Below, piece after piece: positions 3 through 36,107 of a stretch of 53,210 nt of DNA. The notes under the pieces were generated by a model. It did no database searches. It was given only the letters and a program-made list of their open reading frames with translations, and was not told the DNA's origin. The stretch is from an uncultured Rhodospirillaceae bacterium (lineage in GTDB: Bacteria; Pseudomonadota; Alphaproteobacteria; MPNO01; UBA2964): the NCBI GenBank assembly GCA_913052165.1, contig CAJXEC010000005.1, forward strand, positions 1 to 53,210, given 5' to 3'. How positions within the stretch are numbered: position 1 is the first letter of the stretch; the number at the start of each line of letters is the position of its first letter. The translations under genes were made by a program, and so were the position numbers.

Positions 3-1286
3 TTAGGAAAAAGCCCGAAAAAATTTCGACCTCAAAAGCGTTTTCTGAGCCTGATATCAACAGGTGATAAAAGTGCCGTTGCTTCTTATGGCAAGCTCTG
101 TGTCAGGGGTTCTGCAATTTGGAAGTGGAAAAACTGGATCGACTCCAGGTTTATGAAAAAATTTAACGACCTTCCAGAAATGGAGGAAGTTGAAAAGACA
201 GATCTGCCAAACGGATTGGCCAGTGCGGAGGTTGTCCAGGAAATTTCTGCGATTGCGATGCGCTGTGGGGGTTGTGGGGCCAAGGTTGGCGCCACAGTGC
301 TAACACGAGCCCTTAGCGAGCTTAAACCCGCGCCCAGGAAGGACGTATTAATCGGCTTGCATGAACCTGATGATGCGGCAGTAGTGGAGGTGCCAGCCGG
401 CAAAGCCGTGGTTCACACGGTCGATTATTTTCGATCAATGGTCGATGATCCTTTTGTATTCGGAAAGATTGCTGCCAATCACAGTCTTGGTGATATTTAC
501 GCAATGGGAGGGGAGCCTCAAACAGCTCTAGGCATAGCGACAGTCCCCTTTGGCGTTGAAGAAAAAGTAGAGGACACCCTCAAGCAGATGATGGCCGGTG
601 CGATGGAAATTCTCAACGATGCAAATTGCGCACTCGTTGGCGGTCATACATCAGAAGGTCCAGAGCTGAGCCTTGGCTTCTCCGTTAATGGTTTGATTGA
701 TCAAAAAAAGATTATGAGGAAAGGGGGACTTGAGCCTGGAGATAAATTGATAGTGACCAAGCCAATTGGTACCGGCACGTTGTTCGCGGCTAATATGAGA
801 CATAAAGCAAAAGGTCGTTGGATTTCGGCGGCCTTAAATCATATGTCTATGTCTAACCGTATGGCTGCCGAATGTCTGGTGAAGTATCAATCTCGGTCTG
901 CCACTGACATAACAGGTTTTGGGCTTTTGGGGCATCTGGTGGAGATGGTTCGAGCTTCGGGTGTCGATGTGAACCTAGAGCTCTCCGCAGTTCCGTTCAT
1001 GGATGGTGCCGTTGACACAGCTAAATTAGGAATTTTGTCATCGCTTCAACCTCAAAATGTTCGTTTGCGAAGAGCTGTGGCAAATTTAGAGGAAGCGGGA
1101 AGAGATCCTCGTTATCCGTTGATTTATGATCCCCAAACTGCTGGTGGGCTTTTGGCCGGAGTTCCAAACGCCACGGCGAATGAATGTGTGGATGAGCTCA
1201 GAAAAATAGGTTACACAGAAACCAAAATTGTTGGTGAAGTCCTCAAGCAATCCGAAAAACTCGAGCCGATCACGATAAAGCTTTAA
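3..1286 (+). CDS. selD: Selenide, water dikinase SelD, C-terminal part of an Ndh-SelD type fusion (5' truncated by window edge)
   Basis: MRCGGCGAKVGATVL motif and full SelD domain. The frame is open upstream of the listed ATG at 153 back to position 3 (LGKSPKKFRPQKRFLSLISTGDKSAVASYGKLCVRGSAIWKWKNWIDSRFMKKFNDLPEM), which resembles the end of the NADH-dehydrogenase-like domain in Ndh-SelD fusions. Confidence 0.9.
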   Translation, partial: LGKSPKKFRPQKRFLSLISTGDKSAVASYGKLCVRGSAIWKWKNWIDSRFMKKFNDLPEMEEVEKTDLPNGLASAEVVQEISAIAMRCGGCGAKVGATVLTRALSELKPAPRKDVLIGLHEPDDAAVVEVPAGKAVVHTVDYFRSMVDDPFVFGKIAANHSLGDIYAMGGEPQTALGIATVPFGVEEKVEDTLKQMMAGAMEILNDANCALVGGHTSEGPELSLGFSVNGLIDQKKIMRKGGLEPGDKLIVTKPIGTGTLFAANMRHKAKGRWISAALNHMSMSNRMAAECLVKYQSRSATDITGFGLLGHLVEMVRASGVDVNLELSAVPFMDGAVDTAKLGILSSLQPQNVRLRRAVANLEEAGRDPRYPLIYDPQTAGGLLAGVPNATANECVDELRKIGYTETKIVGEVLKQSEKLEPITIKL

Positions 1287-2223
1287 TTAATTCCTTCCAT
1301 TTTCTTCTCTCCAGTTCGGGTTGAAAAAGCTTTTGCCTGCTTGTGACTTGTGACTCCAGCTTACTTAAAAAATTTATGTCGTTTTCCGCTCGACCCAGTG
1401 TTTCGGCCAAATCGATTTCATCTCTTACCCTAAAGTAGCCCTCATAATCCCCTCCAAGCAGGCCAATATTTCCATCAATATCGGAGGCGATCACCGGCAA
1501 ACCGCAAACGATAGCTTCCGATAAAACATTGGCGCCCCCTTCCATGTTGGAACTAATTATCATGGCATGGGATCTTAGGTATTGACGTCTTACTGACCAA
1601 CGGGGCACCTCCCCTCTCCAATCAAAACGGGTATTAAGTGAAGCTTCGAGCTTCACTTTTTCTTCCCATTTTGCGTTGTGTGCTTTTCCTAAGTGAACGA
1701 TCCGGATCCGAGAATTTTGGGGTAGGAGGCGGGCGGCTAAAGCGGGGCGTAAGCTGTCTTTTTCGTCACGTAAATGACCGACCACGCAAAGTTCAAATCG
1801 GTTCTTCGACGGAGATCGAGGAACGGTCAGTGGATCTGATGATTGATAAATTACTTTTAATTTTGCTCGAAAAACCTCGGGAATGGAACGCCACACAAGG
1901 TCATGCAAGCATACCAAAGCGCTCGCCCTTTCCATTGATTCGTATGTTTCTGAGGGATGGGAGTTTTGAAAATGATAAATATCTGTCCCCGCTAATAGAA
2001 CGATGAGCGGACGATTTGGGTGCGCGTCACTAAATGCTTTTATCGATTTTAGAGAGCGCCAGGCATGAATGGCGATCATCATGTCCGCGTTTGAGTTCAG
2101 ACTCTCTGTTAAAACCTCTACCCGATGGCCTAGATCACGTAATATTTTGGCCCAACGAACGGCCGTCGCACGATTTCCGGCCCGGGACTGTTTCCCCGCG
2201 GGAGTGATGACGCTAATCTTCAT
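1270..2223 (-). CDS. senB: SenB-like selenosugar synthase (GT-B glycosyltransferase, TIGR04348-like)
   Basis: N-terminus MKISVITPAGKQSRAGNRATAVRWAKILRDLGHRVEV and C-terminal SEAIVCGLPVIASDIDGNIGLLGGDYEGYF glycosyltransferase signature. Lies between selD and a SenA-like gene. AGGAAG ribosome-binding site upstream of the ATG. Confidence 0.85.
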   Translation of the reverse strand: MKISVITPAGKQSRAGNRATAVRWAKILRDLGHRVEVLTESLNSNADMMIAIHAWRSLKSIKAFSDAHPNRPLIVLLAGTDIYHFQNSHPSETYESMERASALVCLHDLVWRSIPEVFRAKLKVIYQSSDPLTVPRSPSKNRFELCVVGHLRDEKDSLRPALAARLLPQNSRIRIVHLGKAHNAKWEEKVKLEASLNTRFDWRGEVPRWSVRRQYLRSHAMIISSNMEGGANVLSEAIVCGLPVIASDIDGNIGLLGGDYEGYFRVRDEIDLAETLGRAENDINFLSKLESQVTSRQKLFQPELERRKWKELIKALS

Positions 2224-2237
2224 TATCGCTTCCTAAC

Positions 2238-3560
2238 TTGGTCAAGATGCCTGAAAAAAAAAGCAAAGAATACCTTTCATCTATCATGCAAAGTGCCCAT
2301 CAGCGAACACTGGAGCTGATCGACGGCCTAGATGCAAGTCAGCTGATAGGTCCTAAACTTCCTATCTTAAACCCATTATTATGGGAAATTGGTCATGTGG
2401 CGTGGTTTCATGAGCAATTTATCTTGCGGAGGGAATATGGCTATCCGCCAATGCTTGGGCGCGGGGATATCCTATACGACTCGATAGCGATAGCGCATGA
2501 CACGCGTTGGGACTTACCCCTCTATACTTTGCCCGAAATGAGAGATTACTTGGAGAAAGTATTAGATAGCTGTCTTAAGCGACTGGATGATGGGATCGCC
2601 AGTGAACGAGACTCATATCTCTATCAATTCACCACCTTTCATGAAGACATGCATGGGGAGGCTTTTACGTGGGCGAGGCAAACCCTGGCTTATCCAACCC
2701 CTAGGTTTGCGCCCGACGGTTTAGGGAAGAATTGTGCAGCAACTGCCAGCCAAAAAATGCTTGATAACAGCGACGTACAAATCCCTGGCGGCATTTTTGA
2801 ATTTGGTGCTAGCCGTGATGCAGCATTCTATTTTGATAACGAAAAATGGTCTCATAGTGTTAATGTAGCGCCGTTTCGGATGGCGAAGACCCCAGTGACT
2901 AATCTCGAATTTTTAGAATTTGTTGAGGACGGGGGTTACGAAAACGACTCCTTATGGTCTCTAGATGGTATTAATTGGCGACAATCTGTTTCTGCGAATA
3001 AGCCAATTTATTGGCGACGGAAAAAGTCAGGCTCCTGGGAGATGCGGCGTTTTGATAAATGGATTGATCTTCCGATCAATGAGCCCGTAATCCACATTAA
3101 TTGGTATGAAGCTAACGCGTTTTGCAAATGGGCTGCACGTCGTTTGCCAACGGAGGTGGAATGGGAGTTCGCCGCAACCATGAGAGATGACGGGAATGGA
3201 AAGCTTAAGAAATATAAGTTTCCCTGGGGTAATGATCACCCAACCCCTAACCACGCCTGTTTGGATGGTTATTCGCTTGGCTGTGTTCCTATCGATCACT
3301 GTCAAGAGGGTAAAAGCTTCTGGGGATTATCACATCTGATAGGGAATGTATGGGAGTGGACGAGCGATACCTTCGGGCCTTTTGCTGAATTTCAACCGGA
3401 CGATTATAAAGAGTATTCAGAGCCACTTTTTGGTTCTACCAAAGTGCTTCGAGGGGGCGCTTGGACCACCCGTTCAAGATATGTCACGGGTAATTATAGA
3501 AATTATTTCCAACCTGACCGGCGGGATGTTTTGGCTGGATTTAGAACCTGCGCTCTTTGA
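2238..3560 (+). CDS. senA: SenA-like selenoneine synthase (EgtB family: DinB_2 + FGE-sulfatase domains); start may be ATG 2247 rather than TTG 2238
   Basis: DinB metal-site histidines (GHVAWFHEQF, FTTFHEDMHGEAF), IAHDTRWDLPL, and C-terminal LRGGAWTTRSRYVTGNYRNYFQPDRRDVLAGFRTCAL. Adjacent to senB and selD. Confidence 0.85.
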   Translation: MVKMPEKKSKEYLSSIMQSAHQRTLELIDGLDASQLIGPKLPILNPLLWEIGHVAWFHEQFILRREYGYPPMLGRGDILYDSIAIAHDTRWDLPLYTLPEMRDYLEKVLDSCLKRLDDGIASERDSYLYQFTTFHEDMHGEAFTWARQTLAYPTPRFAPDGLGKNCAATASQKMLDNSDVQIPGGIFEFGASRDAAFYFDNEKWSHSVNVAPFRMAKTPVTNLEFLEFVEDGGYENDSLWSLDGINWRQSVSANKPIYWRRKKSGSWEMRRFDKWIDLPINEPVIHINWYEANAFCKWAARRLPTEVEWEFAATMRDDGNGKLKKYKFPWGNDHPTPNHACLDGYSLGCVPIDHCQEGKSFWGLSHLIGNVWEWTSDTFGPFAEFQPDDYKEYSEPLFGSTKVLRGGAWTTRSRYVTGNYRNYFQPDRRDVLAGFRTCAL

Positions 3561-3563
3561 GAA

Positions 3564-4430
3564 CTAGATCTTTCCACTCTCTTTCCAAGCTTTTTCCAGT
3601 GGGGTTTTACGCTCTGGTGTCGTAAAAATAACCGGCTCCCGACAACCTTCTGCGGCCTCGTCAGGAGTAAGGGATTCGTCCCATCTTTCTGCTACGTATC
3701 TGCATCCGGTAATGCCATCAGAGGCGGGGGAGGCTAACCAAACCGAAGGTTTTTTTATCACCTTTGGATCTAATCCCCGACCCTCTATTTTACCGGTTCC
3801 AAATTTGGTGTCCACGGCTCCACCAGGGCTTAAGGTGTTAACAGTGATGCCAGTATCATAAAGCCACTCAGCCCATGCTATCGTTGCGGCATCCAATGCT
3901 GCTTTCGATGGCCCGTAAGGTGTGATTGCCTTTCGGTGCATAGAGTCGGTTCGCTTTGATATATTAATAATCCTTCCCCAACCTTCTTTCGAAATGAATT
4001 TACCTGCGGCATGCATCATGAGAAAAGGGCCCAAAACATTGGTGTCGATGACATCCCTGAAACCCTTCGGATTTACATCCCAAAGGTTTAAAGACCCATC
4101 GCCATGGTGCACATAGCGCCCCGCTTTTCCTGCGTTGTTGACTAGAATGTGAAGGCTCCCGAACTTATCAATAGTTTCAGAGACTGATTGCGCGCAATCA
4201 GTCTCTGAAACTACGTCAGCAACTACGCAATGAGCTTTCGATCCTTGTTTCTCAACAAGAGCCTTTGTTTCTTGCAATTCGGCATCAATTAGAGGCTTAT
4301 CTTCATCGGATGCTGCCGCTGCGGTTAATGTGATGGCCGACACACCAGCTTCAGCAAAAGCGACAGCCATCTCTCTGCCTAATCCTCGAGATCCGCCTGT
4401 TATAAGCGCAGTTTTTCCTTCAAGATTCAC
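3564..4430 (-). CDS. SDR family NAD(P)-dependent oxidoreductase
   Basis: TGGSRGLGRE nucleotide-binding motif, LVNNAG, YGPSKAAL (YxxxK). Confidence 0.9.
   Translation of the reverse strand: MNLEGKTALITGGSRGLGREMAVAFAEAGVSAITLTAAAASDEDKPLIDAELQETKALVEKQGSKAHCVVADVVSETDCAQSVSETIDKFGSLHILVNNAGKAGRYVHHGDGSLNLWDVNPKGFRDVIDTNVLGPFLMMHAAGKFISKEGWGRIINISKRTDSMHRKAITPYGPSKAALDAATIAWAEWLYDTGITVNTLSPGGAVDTKFGTGKIEGRGLDPKVIKKPSVWLASPASDGITGCRYVAERWDESLTPDEAAEGCREPVIFTTPERKTPLEKAWKESGKI
4172..4213. repeat. Perfect 42-bp palindrome inside the SDR coding sequence
   Basis: TAGTTTCAGAGACTGATTGCG|CGCAATCAGTCTCTGAAACTA. The two 21-nt halves are exact reverse complements. Confidence 0.95.
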
Positions 4431-12344: not shown

Positions 12345-14675
12345 TTACTGCCTTATATTTGCCTCTTGGAGAGCTTTCCATACCTTAAGTGGGGTAGCGG
12401 GCATGTCGATGTGTTCAACCCCCATCGGGAGTAAAGCATCATTAATTGCATTCATAATCGCTCCCAAAGCTCCCACATTTCCAGCCTCACCAGCGCCTTT
12501 CGCACCTATCGGGTTTAACCCGGTGGGTACCGGATTGTTCTGTAAGTCAAAGTCGCACATGTTGTCAGCCCGAGGCATGCCATAATCAAGGAATGATCCT
12601 GTGAGTAGTTGTCCACTTTTGGGATCGTATATGATTTGTTCACTTAATGCTTGTCCTATCCCTTGGCCTATCCCGCCATGGATTTGGCCTTCCAGCGTCA
12701 ATTGATTTATGACAGTTCCTACATCGTCAACAACCGAATATTTTATGATTTCTGTTATTCCCGTTTCTGGGTCTATTTCCACCTCACATACATGGCAACC
12801 ATTTGGAAAAGTCGGGGCGTCGGGGACAAAAGTATCTGTATCGAAGAGACCAAGTTGCATGTCACTCGGTATCAAGGTGGGATTATACGAGGCTCTCGCG
12901 ACTTCTTTGATAGAAACGGAGCGATCAGTACCGGCAATGCTAAAAACACCGCGTTCATAATCAATATCATCTAACGCGGCCTCCAACATGTGCGCAGCAA
13001 TTCTTTGGCCCTTTTCGATCACCTTTTCAGCCGCTCGAGAGGCGGCAGATGAACCTAGTATTGCAGTTCTTGAGGCGTATGTGCCTGCGCCAAAGGGGAG
13101 CATATCGGTATCGCCAAAATCAACCCTGATATCTTCATGATTGATACCTAGCTTATCGGAGACGACGATTTTATACATTGTGTCGTGACCCTGTCCGTGA
13201 TCTACCGAGCCTGCGACGACCGTAACAGTGCCCGAAGGGTCAAAACGGATGGAGACGGTCTCACCTTCTGTTTGAGCCGTTTGTTCGATAAAATTAGCGA
13301 TTCCAATGCCGCGCAGTTGCCCATCAGCTTTGGCTTTTTGCCTTCGATCTTCAAAATTTTCGTAGCCAGCAGCGGCAAGAGCCTTCTCTTGGTTTTTATC
13401 AAATTCGCCACAGTCCAAAGTAAATATTAAACCTGTTTTGAAAGGATAATCCTGCTCACGAACAAAGTTTCGGCGTCGGATCTCGGCGCGATCCATTCCA
13501 ATTTCTCGGGCGGCCGCATCGATAATTTGTTCGAGAACATAAGCGGCTTCAGGTCTACCCGAGCCACGGAATGGGCCGTTGCAAGCAGTGTTGGTGAATA
13601 CCGCGGATGACTCCGCGTAAATCAGCGGTGTTCTGTAGGTTCCTGCGAGACCACCAAGGTGGCCTGCTGGTGATATCGTGCCGCCGGGCTCCAAATATGC
13701 GCCAATTCCACAAGTGCTGCTTACTTTCAATGCGAGAAACCGGCCGTTTTTATCAACAGCTAATTCCACGTCTGTTGTTTGGTCGCGGTCGTGATAGTCA
13801 ATGGCCATTCCATCGGAACGGTCGCTAACCCATCGGACGGGAAAACCTACCTTTTTTGAAGCCCATAAAATCATGTGGTTCTCTGGATGATGACCACCTT
13901 TCATTCCAAAGCTTCCGCCTACGTCAGTGGTCATTACTCGGAACTTTGTTTCTTGATCTTGGAAAACATTTTCTGCGAGGGTGCGGCGTACTAAAAATGG
14001 GCGTTGTGTGCCGCAATAAAGAACATAACGGTCATCATGGGGGTCATATGCTGCAACCGCGGCGCGTGGTTCCATGGTGGCTGGTGTAATACGATTAATC
14101 ACCAGCCGTCGCTTGGCGACAAAAGGGGCCTCTGAGATTACCCTTTCAACAGCGATCTTATCGCCGGCTGCATAAAAATAGCTCTCATTATCAGGATTAG
14201 CGTCATGCAAAATGGGTACGTTTTCTCTCAGGGCCTCGGTTGAACCAATCACAACGGGTAACGCTTCATAATCAACTTCGATTAATTCCGCAGCGTCTCG
14301 AGCTCTATCACGCGTATCAGCTATAACAACTGCAACGGCATCACCAACTACTCGCACTCTGTGTTGATTCAAAGCGGGCCGCGGCGGACAGAAAAGAGGT
14401 GAACCATCCCTTCTCTGCCGAGGGTGACCGGCCGGGTGCCAACCCATTTGATCACCTTCCCAATCTGAACCCGTGAACACCGCAATGACCCCAGTCAAAG
14501 ATCTGGCGGCCGAGGTGTTGATGGAAACTATTTTGGCATGGGCGAAAGGGGATCTGAGCACCCAGGCATGCTTGCAATCATAGAGACGCACATCATCAGT
14601 GTAACGACCCTCACCCCTAAGTAGTCTTGGGTCCTCTATCCGAGGTACACTCTGCCCGATAGCAAACTGGCCCAT
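12345..14675 (-). CDS. Xanthine dehydrogenase family molybdopterin-binding subunit (CoxL/aldehyde-oxidase type), copy 1
   Basis: GQSVPRIEDPRLLRGEGRYTDDV, DVGGSFGMKGGHHPEN, GPFRGSGRPEA, GQGHDTMYKIV, GAKGAGEAGNVGA (catalytic Glu). Confidence 0.93.
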   Translation of the reverse strand: MGQFAIGQSVPRIEDPRLLRGEGRYTDDVRLYDCKHAWVLRSPFAHAKIVSINTSAARSLTGVIAVFTGSDWEGDQMGWHPAGHPRQRRDGSPLFCPPRPALNQHRVRVVGDAVAVVIADTRDRARDAAELIEVDYEALPVVIGSTEALRENVPILHDANPDNESYFYAAGDKIAVERVISEAPFVAKRRLVINRITPATMEPRAAVAAYDPHDDRYVLYCGTQRPFLVRRTLAENVFQDQETKFRVMTTDVGGSFGMKGGHHPENHMILWASKKVGFPVRWVSDRSDGMAIDYHDRDQTTDVELAVDKNGRFLALKVSSTCGIGAYLEPGGTISPAGHLGGLAGTYRTPLIYAESSAVFTNTACNGPFRGSGRPEAAYVLEQIIDAAAREIGMDRAEIRRRNFVREQDYPFKTGLIFTLDCGEFDKNQEKALAAAGYENFEDRRQKAKADGQLRGIGIANFIEQTAQTEGETVSIRFDPSGTVTVVAGSVDHGQGHDTMYKIVVSDKLGINHEDIRVDFGDTDMLPFGAGTYASRTAILGSSAASRAAEKVIEKGQRIAAHMLEAALDDIDYERGVFSIAGTDRSVSIKEVARASYNPTLIPSDMQLGLFDTDTFVPDAPTFPNGCHVCEVEIDPETGITEIIKYSVVDDVGTVINQLTLEGQIHGGIGQGIGQALSEQIIYDPKSGQLLTGSFLDYGMPRADNMCDFDLQNNPVPTGLNPIGAKGAGEAGNVGALGAIMNAINDALLPMGVEHIDMPATPLKVWKALQEANIRQ

Positions 14676-20887: not shown

Positions 20888-23161
20888 ATGGCAACGATTC
20901 TCGAAGAAAGTGGGTTTAACCCAGATGCAGATCTTAAAGTTGTTGGAACCAATCCGGTTAAACATGATGGTTTAGATAAGGTATTAGGTCGGGCCAAGTT
21001 TGGAGCTGATGCTTACCTACCTGGAATGCTGTATGGCAAGATTCTGCGGTCACCGCACGCCCATGCGATTATTAAATCAATTGACACGTCTAAGGCAGAG
21101 GCATTGCCAGGCGTAAAGGCAGTTATAACTTCAGCAGATTTCCCGGAGATTCCCCAGGGGACAGGCTGGGGAGATATGAGCCGTAATACCATCGCTCGCG
21201 AGAAGGCTCTTTTCGATGGTCATCCCGTCGCAGCGGTTGCAGCAACCTCAGAACAGGTGGCAAAGCGTGCTTGCAAACTTGTAGAGGTTGAATATGAGGT
21301 GCTTCCGCATGTCATCGACGTAGAGGACGCAATGGCAGAGGGCGCTCCTATCTTGCATGACTATATGCGCACGAAGGGTGATGAAAATGCGCTCGATGTA
21401 CCGACTAATGTTTGCGAGAAAATGGTCAGTAAGCTGGGTGACGTTGCTGTTGGTTTTGAAGCGGCCGATTGCGTAGTTGAACACGAATTTGACTCAAAAC
21501 CCATGCACCAGGGCTACATCGAGCCTCAGGGTTGTATCGCCGATTATTCCGAGGATGGCCTGGTCGAAGTCTGGACCTGCACCCAAGCACCATTTGTCTA
21601 CCGGGATCGTCTGTCAGCAGTGCTGAAAATTGACGCGGCTAAAATCAACGTGCAGCAGTCTGAACTTGGTGGAGGTTTCGGTGGTAAAACCGGTTTCTAT
21701 GCGGAACCTTTAGCTATTATTCTGTCAAAGAAAGCGAGCGCTCCGGTTAAGATGACTCTGACGCGGGCTGAGGTCTTCAGAGGTACAGGGCCCGTCTCCG
21801 GGACAAAATCGCGCATTAAAATGGGATGCACCAAAGATGGTAAGATTACGGCGGCAGAAGCGGATTTATATTTCCAAACGGGCCCCTATACCGGCTCCAT
21901 GTATTTTAATGCGCCAAACGCAATGTTCACTCGCTATGAGTTGGAGAATGTCTACATAGAGGCTTATGAGGTTGTTTCGAATAGACCGAAAGTTAACTCT
22001 TTTCGTGCTCCTTGTGTTCCACAGATTGTCTTTGGTGTGGAAGGTATCATTGATGAAATGGCCAAAAAGGTTGGTATGGATCCCATTGATTTCCGGCTAA
22101 AAAACGCCGCGAAGGAAGGGCACACAACGATCTATGGTGATACTTGGGGACCTGTTGGTTTTATAGAAACTTTAGAGGCAGCCAAGGAGACTGATCATTA
22201 CAAGACACCGGTAAAGGACGGTGAAGGCCGAGGAATCTCATGTGGATTTTGGTTTAATCGAGGGGGTGAAACTTCCTCAACTATGACTCTGGCGCCTGAC
22301 GGAACTGTCACCATCGCGACCGGGACCGCGGATGTGGCTGGGTCACGTATATCGATAGCCATGATGGCCGCAGAAGAACTTGGAATTAGTGTTGATAAAG
22401 TGCGGGTACGTATGGCTGACACAAATTCTTTGGGGTTTAACAGAGTTACAGCCGGCAGTAGGACAACATTTTCTGTAGGTATGGTTGTCGTTGACAATGC
22501 CCGTAAGTGTATCACTGAACTGTGCAGACGCGCCGCCAATATTTGGGGTGTTGCGGAAGAAGAGGTGGTTTACGAAGATGGGCAGGTTAAACCCGCCAGC
22601 TCGAATGTTGGAGACTTTGAGCCTATGTCCGTTGGTGAAATAACATCTAAAACTACAATGACCAATGGGGCTATTGTTTCCTCATCATCAATGAATGTGA
22701 CTGGGGCTGGTCCCGGGTTTGGCGTGAACATCGTCGACTTAAAAGTTGATGAAGGCACTGGGCGTGTTGATGTTCTTCGGTGGACTGTTGTTCAGGATGC
22801 TGGAAAAGCAATTCACCCGGTCCAGGTGGAAGGACAACTTCAGGGTGCAGCAATTCAGGGCATGGGTTGGGCTCTCAATGAAGAATATATTTACACAGAT
22901 GAGGGTAAACTCGATAATCCTGGTTTTCTTGATTATAGAATGCCAGTGGCATCAGACGCGCCCATGGTTGATTGTAAGATTGTCGAAATCCCAAACCCCA
23001 AACACCCGTTCGGGCTGAGGGGTGTTGGCGAGGTGCCGGTGGTCCCAACGATGGCTGCTGTTGGCAACGCGATCACCGATGCGATCGGCATCAGGCCGAC
23101 GTCTTTGCCGATGTCACCACCAAAACTCTTGAAGTTAATAGAAGAACGAGATGCCGGTTAA
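20888..23161 (+). CDS. Xanthine dehydrogenase family molybdopterin-binding subunit, copy 2 (complete M-S-L set)
   Basis: KHDGLDKVLGRAKFGADAYLPGMLYGKILRSPHAHA, GGGFGGKTGFYAEP, FRAPCVPQ, FGLRGVGEVPVVP. Confidence 0.95.
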   Translation: MATILEESGFNPDADLKVVGTNPVKHDGLDKVLGRAKFGADAYLPGMLYGKILRSPHAHAIIKSIDTSKAEALPGVKAVITSADFPEIPQGTGWGDMSRNTIAREKALFDGHPVAAVAATSEQVAKRACKLVEVEYEVLPHVIDVEDAMAEGAPILHDYMRTKGDENALDVPTNVCEKMVSKLGDVAVGFEAADCVVEHEFDSKPMHQGYIEPQGCIADYSEDGLVEVWTCTQAPFVYRDRLSAVLKIDAAKINVQQSELGGGFGGKTGFYAEPLAIILSKKASAPVKMTLTRAEVFRGTGPVSGTKSRIKMGCTKDGKITAAEADLYFQTGPYTGSMYFNAPNAMFTRYELENVYIEAYEVVSNRPKVNSFRAPCVPQIVFGVEGIIDEMAKKVGMDPIDFRLKNAAKEGHTTIYGDTWGPVGFIETLEAAKETDHYKTPVKDGEGRGISCGFWFNRGGETSSTMTLAPDGTVTIATGTADVAGSRISIAMMAAEELGISVDKVRVRMADTNSLGFNRVTAGSRTTFSVGMVVVDNARKCITELCRRAANIWGVAEEEVVYEDGQVKPASSNVGDFEPMSVGEITSKTTMTNGAIVSSSSMNVTGAGPGFGVNIVDLKVDEGTGRVDVLRWTVVQDAGKAIHPVQVEGQLQGAAIQGMGWALNEEYIYTDEGKLDNPGFLDYRMPVASDAPMVDCKIVEIPNPKHPFGLRGVGEVPVVPTMAAVGNAITDAIGIRPTSLPMSPPKLLKLIEERDAG

Positions 23162-31306: not shown

Positions 31307-33625
31307 TTAATTTTGGCTCTTGATGATTTCTTTGAGCCTTTGCGGTGATACAGGGATTTGTTTTACCGCGCCCGGTATACCAATCGCGTCATCTATAGCG
31401 CTTGCAATTGCTGCCGCTGCGCCGGTAATGCCGGCCTCGCCAGCACCTTTTATCCCTATTGGAGTACGAATAGAGGGGAAATCCTCAGTAAGAAGGATTT
31501 CTGGCTTGGGCACCTCATGCATAGTTGGGATAAGATAGTCAGCGAAGGTAACGGAAAGAGGTTGTCCCTCAGCATCATAACAAAACTCCTCAAAAAGAGA
31601 TCCCCCAAGTCCCTGAGCTAACCCTCCGACAAGTTGTCCATCCACAAGCATTGGGTTAATGGATCTGCCTATGTCATACGCGATGAAATATTTTTCAATT
31701 TCGACACCACCTGTCTCGGGGTCAACCTTCACGACGCAAATATGGTGCCCATAAGGGTAGGTTTGATGATCAATATTAAACCATTCTTCGGCTGCAAGGT
31801 AAGGCACCTTCTTCCCGCGTTCTTTTGCAGTCGGCAGTAAGGCTTCTGCTATTTCTCCTAAGCTGAGAGACGGACCTTCCGAATTGCTTTTCTGATGAAC
31901 AACGCCGCGAGATATTGTTAGATCTTCCGCGCGCATTTGAAGAAGCTCCGCAGCTGTCTCCAGCGCTTTCTTTCTTACCGCTAAAGCTGTCGCATTTACC
32001 GCACTACCTGTAAGAACACTTGCACGCGATGCGTGAGCACCGACACCATAGTCAATACGGTCTGTGCGGCCATGAACAACATTTATGTTTCGATAATCAG
32101 CTCCAAGCGCATCTGCACAAATTTGGGCCATTGCTGTCTCAAATCCTTGCCCAAGAGACGCACCTCCTGTGACAACTTCGATGTGCCCCGTTGTGTCGAC
32201 GAAGATTTTTGCCCCATCGGATGGCCCAAGCCCACTTTTTTCGAAAAACATAGAGAGACCAACCCCCACCATTTCCCCTTTGGACCGGCGATTAGCCAAC
32301 TCGGCTTTCAAATCGTCCCATCTTACAGCGTCTAAGCCCTGATCTAAAAGGCCTGCGTAGTCACCAGGATCGTGTTCAACAGAGTCTCCAAGGACATCAA
32401 GATCTCGCCCGTAGGGCATTTCCTCAAGGGAAATCAAGTTACGACGCCGAACAGAAACTGGATCTATATCCATCTCGTGCGCAATTTTATCCATCAGCCG
32501 CTCGCGGACAAATGTCGACTCGAAGCGACCTGGCGATCTGTATGTCGCCGCGGGTGTCTTATTCGTTAATCTGAAATGGCAAATTGAGCGGTAGTTGGGT
32601 ATTCTGTAGGGCCCGGGCAAAGTACCAGTCGTCATATTAGCTACCCTGGTTCCATGCGTCCTGATATAGCCACCCTGATCGAGAAATAACTCGTCATCGA
32701 TCGCTATTACTTCTCCATCTTCTGCGACCGCTGCTTTGCAGATATGACGTTGCTGTCTGGAGTGGTTTGCGGCCATCAAATTTTCTTGTCGGTCCTCTAT
32801 CCATTTGACAGGGCGATCAAGGCGCATGGCCGCGACACAAACTAATACATCCTCGGGGTAAAGCTCACCCCGTATCCCAAATCCACCACCGGTGTGCCCT
32901 TCGAATAAATGAACTCCCGAAGATGGCCTATTCAGCATGCGACATATAGTATCTCTATTTCGATGTGGAACTTTCGCAGCCCCATACAACTCTAATACGT
33001 CCCGTGCTGCATCGTAGCGCCCGATGGCCCCCCGCGTTTCCAGGGGGACTCCCGAGTGGCGACCGACTTGGACGTCAACTTCCACAATCTTGAATGCCTC
33101 AGAGAATGATTTTTCTATATCACCGTAACCTTGTTCCACAAGCGCGGCTTCGGTTGTGTAGCCCTCTTTGAAGGCTTGGGGTGGGTCATCTGCGTTAATA
33201 AGAACCTCCAATGGTTCAATATCAAGCGTGACAAGCTCTGCTGCATCCTCTGCAATATATGGGTCCTCGGCAAATACCGCGGCGACCGGGTCACCAACAT
33301 ACCTTACTCGATCTCTTGCAAGCGGATATTGCCTGAAAAGCGCGAGTGCAGGATTGCTCCCCTCACGAAAATCAATCGGTGGAACGTCTGCGATGTCGTC
33401 AGTTGTCCAGACTGCGATAACCCCGCTCAATGACGAGGCAGCCGCCTTATCTATTGATTTGATTTTCCCGTGGGCAAGTGGGCTCCTCACTATCCGCATG
33501 TGTATTTGACCAGGGAAATTGATATCATCCGCGTAACGACCTTTGCCAGTGATCAGAGGCGGATCTTCGAGTCGAGGCACCGAGTCGCCTAGGTGTCCGA
33601 GGAGTTCGTTCGTATCTGTGCTCAT
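31307..33625 (-). CDS. Xanthine dehydrogenase family molybdopterin-binding subunit, copy 3
   Basis: GDSVPRLEDPPLITGKGRYADDI, HTGGGFGIRGELYPEDVL, TYRSPGRFESTFVRERL, GIKGAGEAGITGA. Confidence 0.94.
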   Translation of the reverse strand: MSTDTNELLGHLGDSVPRLEDPPLITGKGRYADDINFPGQIHMRIVRSPLAHGKIKSIDKAAASSLSGVIAVWTTDDIADVPPIDFREGSNPALALFRQYPLARDRVRYVGDPVAAVFAEDPYIAEDAAELVTLDIEPLEVLINADDPPQAFKEGYTTEAALVEQGYGDIEKSFSEAFKIVEVDVQVGRHSGVPLETRGAIGRYDAARDVLELYGAAKVPHRNRDTICRMLNRPSSGVHLFEGHTGGGFGIRGELYPEDVLVCVAAMRLDRPVKWIEDRQENLMAANHSRQQRHICKAAVAEDGEVIAIDDELFLDQGGYIRTHGTRVANMTTGTLPGPYRIPNYRSICHFRLTNKTPAATYRSPGRFESTFVRERLMDKIAHEMDIDPVSVRRRNLISLEEMPYGRDLDVLGDSVEHDPGDYAGLLDQGLDAVRWDDLKAELANRRSKGEMVGVGLSMFFEKSGLGPSDGAKIFVDTTGHIEVVTGGASLGQGFETAMAQICADALGADYRNINVVHGRTDRIDYGVGAHASRASVLTGSAVNATALAVRKKALETAAELLQMRAEDLTISRGVVHQKSNSEGPSLSLGEIAEALLPTAKERGKKVPYLAAEEWFNIDHQTYPYGHHICVVKVDPETGGVEIEKYFIAYDIGRSINPMLVDGQLVGGLAQGLGGSLFEEFCYDAEGQPLSVTFADYLIPTMHEVPKPEILLTEDFPSIRTPIGIKGAGEAGITGAAAAIASAIDDAIGIPGAVKQIPVSPQRLKEIIKSQN

Positions 33626-33764: not shown

Positions 33765-36107
33765 ATGCCTGACGGTAAACTTTTTGGGAAAGATATTAAA
33801 CGGCTAGAAGATCCAGTCCTATTACGAGGCGAAGCTCATTTCGCAGATGATATTTGTTTGCCAGAAATGGCTCACGCCTGCTTTGTCCGAAGCCCTTTCG
33901 CACACGCATTAGTGAAAGGAATAAATAGCTCTGCAGCAGAGGAGATTGAGGGGGTAATTGCCGTTGTAACCCTCGCTGATTTGCGTCCCCAACTTCTAAG
34001 CGAGCTGCTTGTTGTTGGGCTTCCCAGCCCCAGTTACCGACAGCACAGTGATCGTCCGGTGCTCGCGTTTGAGGAGGTTTCTTATGTTGGTGAACCGGTT
34101 GCTGTAGTGGTTGCGAGGTCTCGCCATATTGCGGAGGACGCCGCCGCAATAGTTGATGTCGATTACGAAGCCTTGCCAGCGATTAGTGACTGCAAGAAGG
34201 CCCTCGAAGATGGTAGTCCGACTGCTCGAGCGGGTGCTCCGCATAACCTCATGGCGGAGTTCCTGCAAGAATACGGGGATGTAGACGCGGCGTTTTCAAA
34301 TTCACCGCACGTTTTCAAGGAGTCCCTTTTGGTTCATCGAGGTGGCAGTCACTCCATAGAGTGTCGGGGTTGCGTGGCTCGCTACGAGGATATTACAGAT
34401 GAGCTAACTCTTTGGACCTCTCATCAAATGCCACACTCGTTGATGCGGACCTTTGTTGAAATCACGGGTTTAGATGAGAACAAAGTGAGAATTGTAACTC
34501 CTCATGTGGGTGGCGGTTTCGGCCCAAAACTGGTCGTCTACCAGGAAGATGTTAGCCTTTTATTGGCCTCAAAACTTCTAAAACTTCCAATTAAATGGAT
34601 AGAGGACCGTCGCGAGCATTTTACCAATACCACGCAGGAGCGTGATCAGTATTGGGATGTCGAAATTGCAGTTGATGAAGAGGGCTTAATTCAAGGAGTT
34701 CGTGGTGGAGTGATCCACGATCACGGTGCTTACACCGCGAGGGGGGTTAACCTGCCTTATAATGCAGCAGAGACGATCCCGCTCGCATACGAAATTAAAA
34801 ATTTCAAAATGGCAGTGCGTGTTGCACTGACAAACAAGGTGCCAGTGACGCCTGTGCGTGGTGCGGGTCATCCGCAGGGAGTTTTTGTGATGGAGCGATT
34901 ACTGGACCGTGCGGCGAGGGAATTAAACATAGACAGAGCAGAAATTCGACGACGCAACCTTATTCCCGGCGACCAAATGCCCTATGAGAAGCAGCTCAAG
35001 ACCCGAGGGGGGATGCCGGTTTTGCTAGACTCTGGAAATTATCCTAAATGCCAGGCGATCGCTGAGGAAGCTGCAGACTGGGCAGGTTTTCCTGCCCGTC
35101 AAAAGGCCGCTCTAGCAAATGGGCGTTACCTCGGCATCGGTCTGTCTAACTTTGTAAAAGGCACTGGCCGAGGTCCCTTCGAGCAGGTAACGGTGCGAAT
35201 TGGCCCCTCAGGCAAAGTGCATGTTTACACCGGTGGGGTAAATATTGGACAGGGTACACATACAATGTTGGCCCAAATTGTCGGTGAGCAGCTTGGGGCA
35301 GATATGAATAACGTCACCCTGGTTGGTGGTGATACACATGCGACTGCGCTTGGAATTGGCACCTCAAATAGCCGGCTCGCTGTGGTGGCGGGGACCTCCG
35401 CACACGTTGCAGCGGTAAAAGTTCGCGAAAAAGCGTTGAAAGTCGCCTCACAGTTATTAGAAGCTTCTCAGGAGGACCTAGAGATTATCGACGGCGACGT
35501 GGTAGTGAGGGGTACGGATATGCGAATTTCACTCGGCGATGTCGCCAATGCGGTTGCCGGTACCCCAGGTTATGCGCTGCCCGAGGGTACTGAGCCAGGG
35601 TTGGAGGCTACTGAAAATGTGGTTCTCGATAATCTCGCCTTTGCAAATGGGACCAATGTAATTGAGGTAGAAGTTGATCCTGATACAGGAGGGGTGAAAA
35701 TTTTGAAGTTCATTCTCGCTCACGACAGCGGTGTTATAATCAATCCAATGATGGCCGATGGCCAAATTTTCGGGAGCGCGGCTCACGGGATCGGAAACTC
35801 CCTTTTTGAATGGATGGGTTACGATGATGATGCAAATCCCGTTACCACAAATTTTGGCGAATATCTTTTGGTAACGGCTACCGAGATGCCTCATGTTCAA
35901 GTTATCCATCATGAGTCTCCATCACCTTTGAACCCATTAGGCGTGAAAGGTGTGGGAGAATGCGGGGTTGTCCCCACACCAGCAGCGGTTATCTCTGCCG
36001 TTGAAAATGCTTTGCAGCCGTTTGGTGCGCGTTTTAGTAAAGCCCCTGTGAGCCCATCCGAAATTATTGGCATGATTAAACAGGGGCGGATGCAGGGTGC
36101 CGCATAA
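33765..36107 (+). CDS. Xanthine dehydrogenase family molybdopterin-binding subunit, copy 4
   Basis: GKDIKRLEDPVLLRGEAHFADDI, HVGGGFGPKLVVYQEDV, VRGAGHPQGVFVMERLLD, GVKGVGECGVVPTP. Confidence 0.94.
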   Translation: MPDGKLFGKDIKRLEDPVLLRGEAHFADDICLPEMAHACFVRSPFAHALVKGINSSAAEEIEGVIAVVTLADLRPQLLSELLVVGLPSPSYRQHSDRPVLAFEEVSYVGEPVAVVVARSRHIAEDAAAIVDVDYEALPAISDCKKALEDGSPTARAGAPHNLMAEFLQEYGDVDAAFSNSPHVFKESLLVHRGGSHSIECRGCVARYEDITDELTLWTSHQMPHSLMRTFVEITGLDENKVRIVTPHVGGGFGPKLVVYQEDVSLLLASKLLKLPIKWIEDRREHFTNTTQERDQYWDVEIAVDEEGLIQGVRGGVIHDHGAYTARGVNLPYNAAETIPLAYEIKNFKMAVRVALTNKVPVTPVRGAGHPQGVFVMERLLDRAARELNIDRAEIRRRNLIPGDQMPYEKQLKTRGGMPVLLDSGNYPKCQAIAEEAADWAGFPARQKAALANGRYLGIGLSNFVKGTGRGPFEQVTVRIGPSGKVHVYTGGVNIGQGTHTMLAQIVGEQLGADMNNVTLVGGDTHATALGIGTSNSRLAVVAGTSAHVAAVKVREKALKVASQLLEASQEDLEIIDGDVVVRGTDMRISLGDVANAVAGTPGYALPEGTEPGLEATENVVLDNLAFANGTNVIEVEVDPDTGGVKILKFILAHDSGVIINPMMADGQIFGSAAHGIGNSLFEWMGYDDDANPVTTNFGEYLLVTATEMPHVQVIHHESPSPLNPLGVKGVGECGVVPTPAAVISAVENALQPFGARFSKAPVSPSEIIGMIKQGRMQGAA

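Follow-up and report, generated by a model that had tools for sequence, protein, structure and literature searches.

The question raised by this locus is whether three adjacent genes of an uncultured bacterium, encoding a selenophosphate synthase, a glycosyltransferase and an EgtB-like protein, serve the biosynthesis of selenoneine, an antioxidant that contains selenium, or of another product.

Layout of the locus and its source genome

The stretch of DNA analysed (the window; 53,210 nucleotides) corresponds to contig C5 of an alphaproteobacterial MAG (G000) of 2.48 Mb in 141 contigs, which is 86.6% complete and 3.4% contaminated. Its named relatives, likewise MAGs of uncultured organisms, carry the titles Rhodospirillaceae or Alphaproteobacteria; judging from these relatives, the source bacterium is probably of marine origin.

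The genes selD (3–1286, + strand), senB (1270–2223, − strand) and senA (2238/2247–3560, + strand) are adjacent, at the positions given in a preliminary description of the sequence. All three matched at levels well outside chance and scored above the cut-offs in the profile search: selD with TIGR00476 (304.6 bits against a cut-off of 125), senB with TIGR04348 (390.4 against 300) and senA with NF041186 (476.9 against 420). The strand order is + − +: senB is antisense to both neighbours, convergent with selD and divergent from senA; therefore, the three genes do not form a co-directional operon. Read directly from the sequence, selD and senB overlap by 17 nt (1270–1286), and a 23-nt spacer (2224–2246) separates the senB and senA ATG codons (2223/2247). 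A start of senA at TTG 2238 gives a protein of 440 aa, while the likelier ATG at 2247 gives 437 aa. A promoter and terminator scan of positions 1150–3700 returned one promoter-like and two terminator-like sites, which did not rise above shuffled sequences.

Elsewhere in the 53-kb window, four xanthine-dehydrogenase/CO-dehydrogenase-like large subunits were recognised by eye (12345–14675, 20888–23161, 31307–33625 and 33765–36107), which probably reflect paralog richness. Genes of this kind also flank senB or senA in some of the relatives.

The selenophosphate synthase and its fused domain

The selD reading frame runs off the start of the window, which is the edge of the contig. Its first part encodes the C-terminal ∼54 aa of an Ndh-like FAD/NAD(P)H oxidoreductase domain (3–164, + strand; TIGR03169 positions 313–365), fused to the SelD/SenC selenophosphate synthase domain (258–1286, + strand). 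TIGR03169 positions 1–314 were located at the very end of another contig of the same genome (C37:7–969), and the end of that contig overlaps the start of the window by 17 bases, in frame. In relatives, both domains are found in one protein of ∼755 aa. We take the window selD to encode the C-terminal portion of an Ndh-SelD fusion whose gene is cut by the contig edge. The SelD motif, CGGCGAK, contains the CxxC cysteines at 264–266 and 273–275 and the lysine at 282–284, and CGGCG[AS]K was present in 61 of the 61 full-length fusions examined. The AlphaFold model of the fusion from a genome of the same genus (G001) had a mean pLDDT of 82.9; one half matched the fold of selenophosphate synthetases and the other that of type II NADH dehydrogenases, followed by sulfide:quinone oxidoreductases.

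Ndh-SelD fusions have been described from marine bacteria. The 2008 Global Ocean Sampling survey reported a CxxC in all the fusions found, which made up ∼40% of the Cys-type SelDs in those data, and expected the fusion to act in selenophosphate synthesis only (PMC2398784). The fusion described here shares with them the N-terminal NADH-dehydrogenase-like domain and the CxxC in the SelD active site, but differs in being linked to senB. A role of the Ndh domain in the redox chemistry of selenium supply is only a guess. The fuller proposal is that SelD receives selenium that this NDH-2-like domain has reduced or relayed; the common marine fusion would then be a module for selenium supply, with a gene that is repeatedly tied to senB. 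We consider this doubtful; if it were true, the fusion, whose extra domain had no clear role in the 2008 description, would become connected with a selenometabolite.

Catalytic and binding residues of SenB

The senB product (317 aa) matched SenB structures in the PDB, and its TIGR04348 score places the glycosyltransferase inside the SenB family, as the preliminary description had proposed. Alignment to the solved structure paired residues N17, T20, H53, R56, T80, R152, K155 and E228 with N20, T23, H58, R61, T85, R155, K158 and E231 of Variovorax SenB, respectively. Mutagenesis of the Variovorax enzyme marks these residues as important, namely the catalytic Lys158, the sugar-site N20, T23 and E231, and the selenophosphate-site H58, R61, T85 and R155 (PMC10891094). 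These catalytic and binding residues are kept in the window protein and are invariant in an 11-row alignment; E228 lies in EGGANV, and its Variovorax counterpart E231 in EGGAHV. T83 is replaced by Ala in the window protein. By homology, the window SenB would combine selenophosphate with a UDP-sugar to form a selenosugar.

Identity of the EgtB-like protein

OvsA is the ovoselenol synthase, which puts selenium on histidine. An EgtB-like protein of this type would make the locus one for ovoselenol, an alternative absent from the preliminary description. OvsA is the best PDB match of the window SenA by sequence (276 bits versus 232 for Variovorax SenA) and also by fold (TM 0.88), and four OvsA loci (L129, L139, L144 and L171) likewise carry SenB and Ndh-SelD. 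The genuine OvsA of Vreelandella utahensis (L144:7018–8373) itself passes the SenA model NF041186 (428.1 versus 420 bits), which therefore gives no exclusion of OvsA. Neither the model nor the best hit can thus decide the product, and a pass of NF041186 was dropped as decisive evidence for SenA once OvsA was found to pass too. Automatic annotation with this model may call ovoselenol loci selenoneine loci.

The residues of the active site were more discriminating. The three-His iron site (H53, H135 and H139; TTG numbering here and below) is present in the window SenA. The substrate pocket, Y393/N422/Y423, reads Y/N/Y, as against Y/N/F in Variovorax SenA and M/Q/A in OvsA. In a census of 87 family rows, M/Q/A was found in all six OvsA rows, while 76 of the other 81 rows had Y/N/F, Y/N/Y or Y/N/W; the five that differed were two Y/T/Y, two gapped and one W/H/F. 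The Y/N/Y form of the window was seen in 28 of the 87 rows. The functional meaning of these positions rests on the title of PDB entry 8ux5, the OvsA variant M401Y/Q430N/A431F, described there as "a hercynine-binding variant with selenoneine-biosynthetic activity"; in the window SenA the last of the three pocket positions holds Tyr, and in both the tested SenA and this OvsA variant it holds Phe. The three pocket positions of the window SenA would favour hercynine as its substrate.

The phylogeny pointed in the same direction. In the 87-row tree, where Variovorax SenA is a long branch, the window protein was placed among the senB-linked SenA proteins, OvsA formed a clade of its own, and the alphaproteobacterial EgtBs stood apart. 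AU tests rejected the grouping of the window protein with OvsA (p 0.0164) and with EgtB (p 0.0104). TIGR04373 gave 80.8 bits in the window SenA (cut-off 71) against 44.6 in OvsA. The gene arrangement also differs, with OvsA co-directional with senB in four of four intact OvsA loci and the window senA divergent, and EgtD, the hercynine enzyme, adjoins senA in several sister loci. With pocket residues, tree and AU test all resolved toward SenA, an ovoselenol locus is very improbable. As a separate observation, TIGR04373 and the Y/N/[FY] versus M/Q/A positions separate SenA from OvsA in the sample examined.

It is less probable again that the cluster really yields the selenosugar of SenB, or else some other selenohistidine derivative, with SenA acting on a different acceptor. 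In relatives of genus g4, senB adjoins Ndh-SelD and has no senA linked to it, as such a product might lead one to expect, but these relatives carry SenA elsewhere in the genome, iron-competent in every full-length copy examined (G010 has a contig-end fragment only). SenB and SenA are therefore retained together, and the idea that these relatives make something else was dropped. Least probable is ergothioneine synthesis, in which an EgtB would couple cysteine or gamma-glutamylcysteine to hercynine beside coincidental neighbours: the window SenA shares the EgtB fold, and EgtD is present in the genome, but its score with the EgtB model TIGR03440 (308.8 bits) falls below the cut-off of 360 while it exceeds that of SenA, the alphaproteobacterial EgtBs form a separate clade, and its linkage to SenB and SelD is fixed.

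The preliminary description had read the EgtB-like protein as SenA and the locus as one for selenoneine, and the grouping of this protein with senB-linked SenA, apart from EgtB, backs that reading. By homology with characterised enzymes, the window SenA is predicted to couple the selenosugar to hercynine.

Conservation of the gene linkage

The neighbourhoods of 80 related senB loci were compared. A divergent SenA neighbour was observed in 56 of the 80 and a convergent selD likewise in 56; OvsA occurred in five and EgtD in eight. In-frame Ndh-SelD fusions accounted for at least 51 of these selD genes, and some others were cut by contig ends. Thirteen related loci had a selD/senB overlap of exactly 17 nt; between senA and senB, the gap measured from alignment starts was 14–32 nt in 30 of the 56 divergent loci. 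The tail-to-tail overlap and the head-to-head spacing of ∼20 nt were seen to be kept in both alpha- and gammaproteobacterial loci.

Across 289 alphaproteobacterial genomes, SenB was found in 10 and Ndh-SelD in 48. Nine genomes had both, and the two were neighbours in all nine (Fisher p 4e-7, a guide only, as the genomes are related).

Hercynine supply and other uses of selenium in the genome

EgtD was found on a separate 9.5-kb contig (C95; 359.2 bits versus a cut-off of 290.9). This location, the Ndh-SelD fusion and the antiparallel gene order go beyond the preliminary description. The same-genus genome G001, which is 99% complete, has the whole set. EgtD scored above the cut-off in 13 of 20 SenB-bearing genomes and was not found in the other seven, including one (G014) that is >90% complete and <5% contaminated; missing contigs or imported hercynine may account for these cases.

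The matches to the EgtB model in the genome were the window SenA, a diverged paralog on contig C1 and a short weak match. None of them passes the EgtB cut-off, and hence no competing EgtB was detected among them. The paralog is a second SenA-like protein (G000:C1:48161–49486; L187:6162–7487, − strand) with an ortholog in G001 (L188:6957–8282). The two histidines of its HxxxH iron motif are replaced, by R and W in G000 and by R and L in G001. Both genomes nevertheless encode it at its full length of 441 aa; the two proteins are 56.5% identical, and pN is 0.31 versus a pS of 0.78, with synonymous sites saturated. It shares neighbours with the iron-competent, senB-unlinked SenA of genus g4 (L190 and L191). 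This protein is possibly a conserved pseudoenzyme.

SelA, tRNA-Sec and SelU are also present in the genome, and its sole other SelD match is a weak one, with 29% identity along only part of the protein. Because of this, one selenophosphate synthase probably serves selenoneine, selenocysteine and selenouridine. The preliminary description had left it open whether selenium would feed a small molecule instead of selenocysteine or in addition to it; the second option stands and the first does not, as the genes present indicate that selenoneine would be made in addition to selenocysteine and selenouridine.

Proposed pathway and comparison with known systems

We regard selD-senB-senA as a selenoneine biosynthesis locus with a probability of about 0.91, the reactions and the product being predicted by homology. 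What was observed is family membership, active-site residues, tree position, linkage and gene co-occurrence. In the proposed pathway, the Ndh-SelD fusion, in the role of SenC, would convert selenide and ATP to selenophosphate, and SenB would join the selenium to a UDP-sugar to give a 1-seleno-sugar. SenA, a non-heme iron enzyme, would then use O2 to couple the selenosugar to hercynine, made from histidine by EgtD at the other locus, and the resulting selenoxide would fall apart and be reduced to selenoneine. The same selenophosphate pool would feed selenocysteine (SelA and tRNA-Sec) and 2-selenouridine (SelU). The chemistry of this pathway is established for Variovorax (PMC10702425, PMC10903977; also PMC10891094, PMC9814287).

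The sen cluster was discovered through a search for genes overlapping selD (PMC9814287); the cluster of Variovorax paradoxus, with SenA, SenB and SenC, is that of Kayrouz et al. (2022), as outlined in PMC9814287 and PMC10702425. The window locus, with its partly overlapping + − + genes, holds the same three activities, and its SenB and SenA retain the catalytic residues and score above the NCBIfam cut-offs. It differs in its SenC, putatively the C-terminal portion of an Ndh-SelD fusion, which would also serve the synthesis of selenocysteine and selenouridine. The NCBI-annotated Methylorubrum populi plasmid pMPPM01 (NZ_AP014810.1) is likewise alphaproteobacterial and has senB and senA head-to-head, 27 nt apart, but no selD lies within the 5 kb examined, and its SenA is 48% identical. 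The OvsA of Halomonas/Vreelandella utahensis (PDB 8u41, 8u42 and 8ux5) resembles the window SenA in fold and in a selenosugar-type locus with SenB and Ndh-SelD, whereas its pocket, clade and gene orientation are different. The locus is a well-supported addition to a known kind of system and does not represent a new one; the sen cluster has already been described, and the senB-senA pair of M. populi is already annotated.

Biological significance

Loci for selenoneine and loci for ovoselenol are not told apart by the SenA family model in its current form. The locus described here places selenoneine genes in uncultured, probably marine alphaproteobacteria that also hold selenoprotein and selenouridine genes, with all three uses of selenium apparently supplied by one selenophosphate synthase. 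It further links the Ndh-SelD fusions of the Global Ocean Sampling data to the synthesis of a selenometabolite. Marine animals are known to contain selenoneine (PMC9814287), and where that of tuna comes from has not been settled (PMC10903977); marine bacterial producers are therefore relevant.
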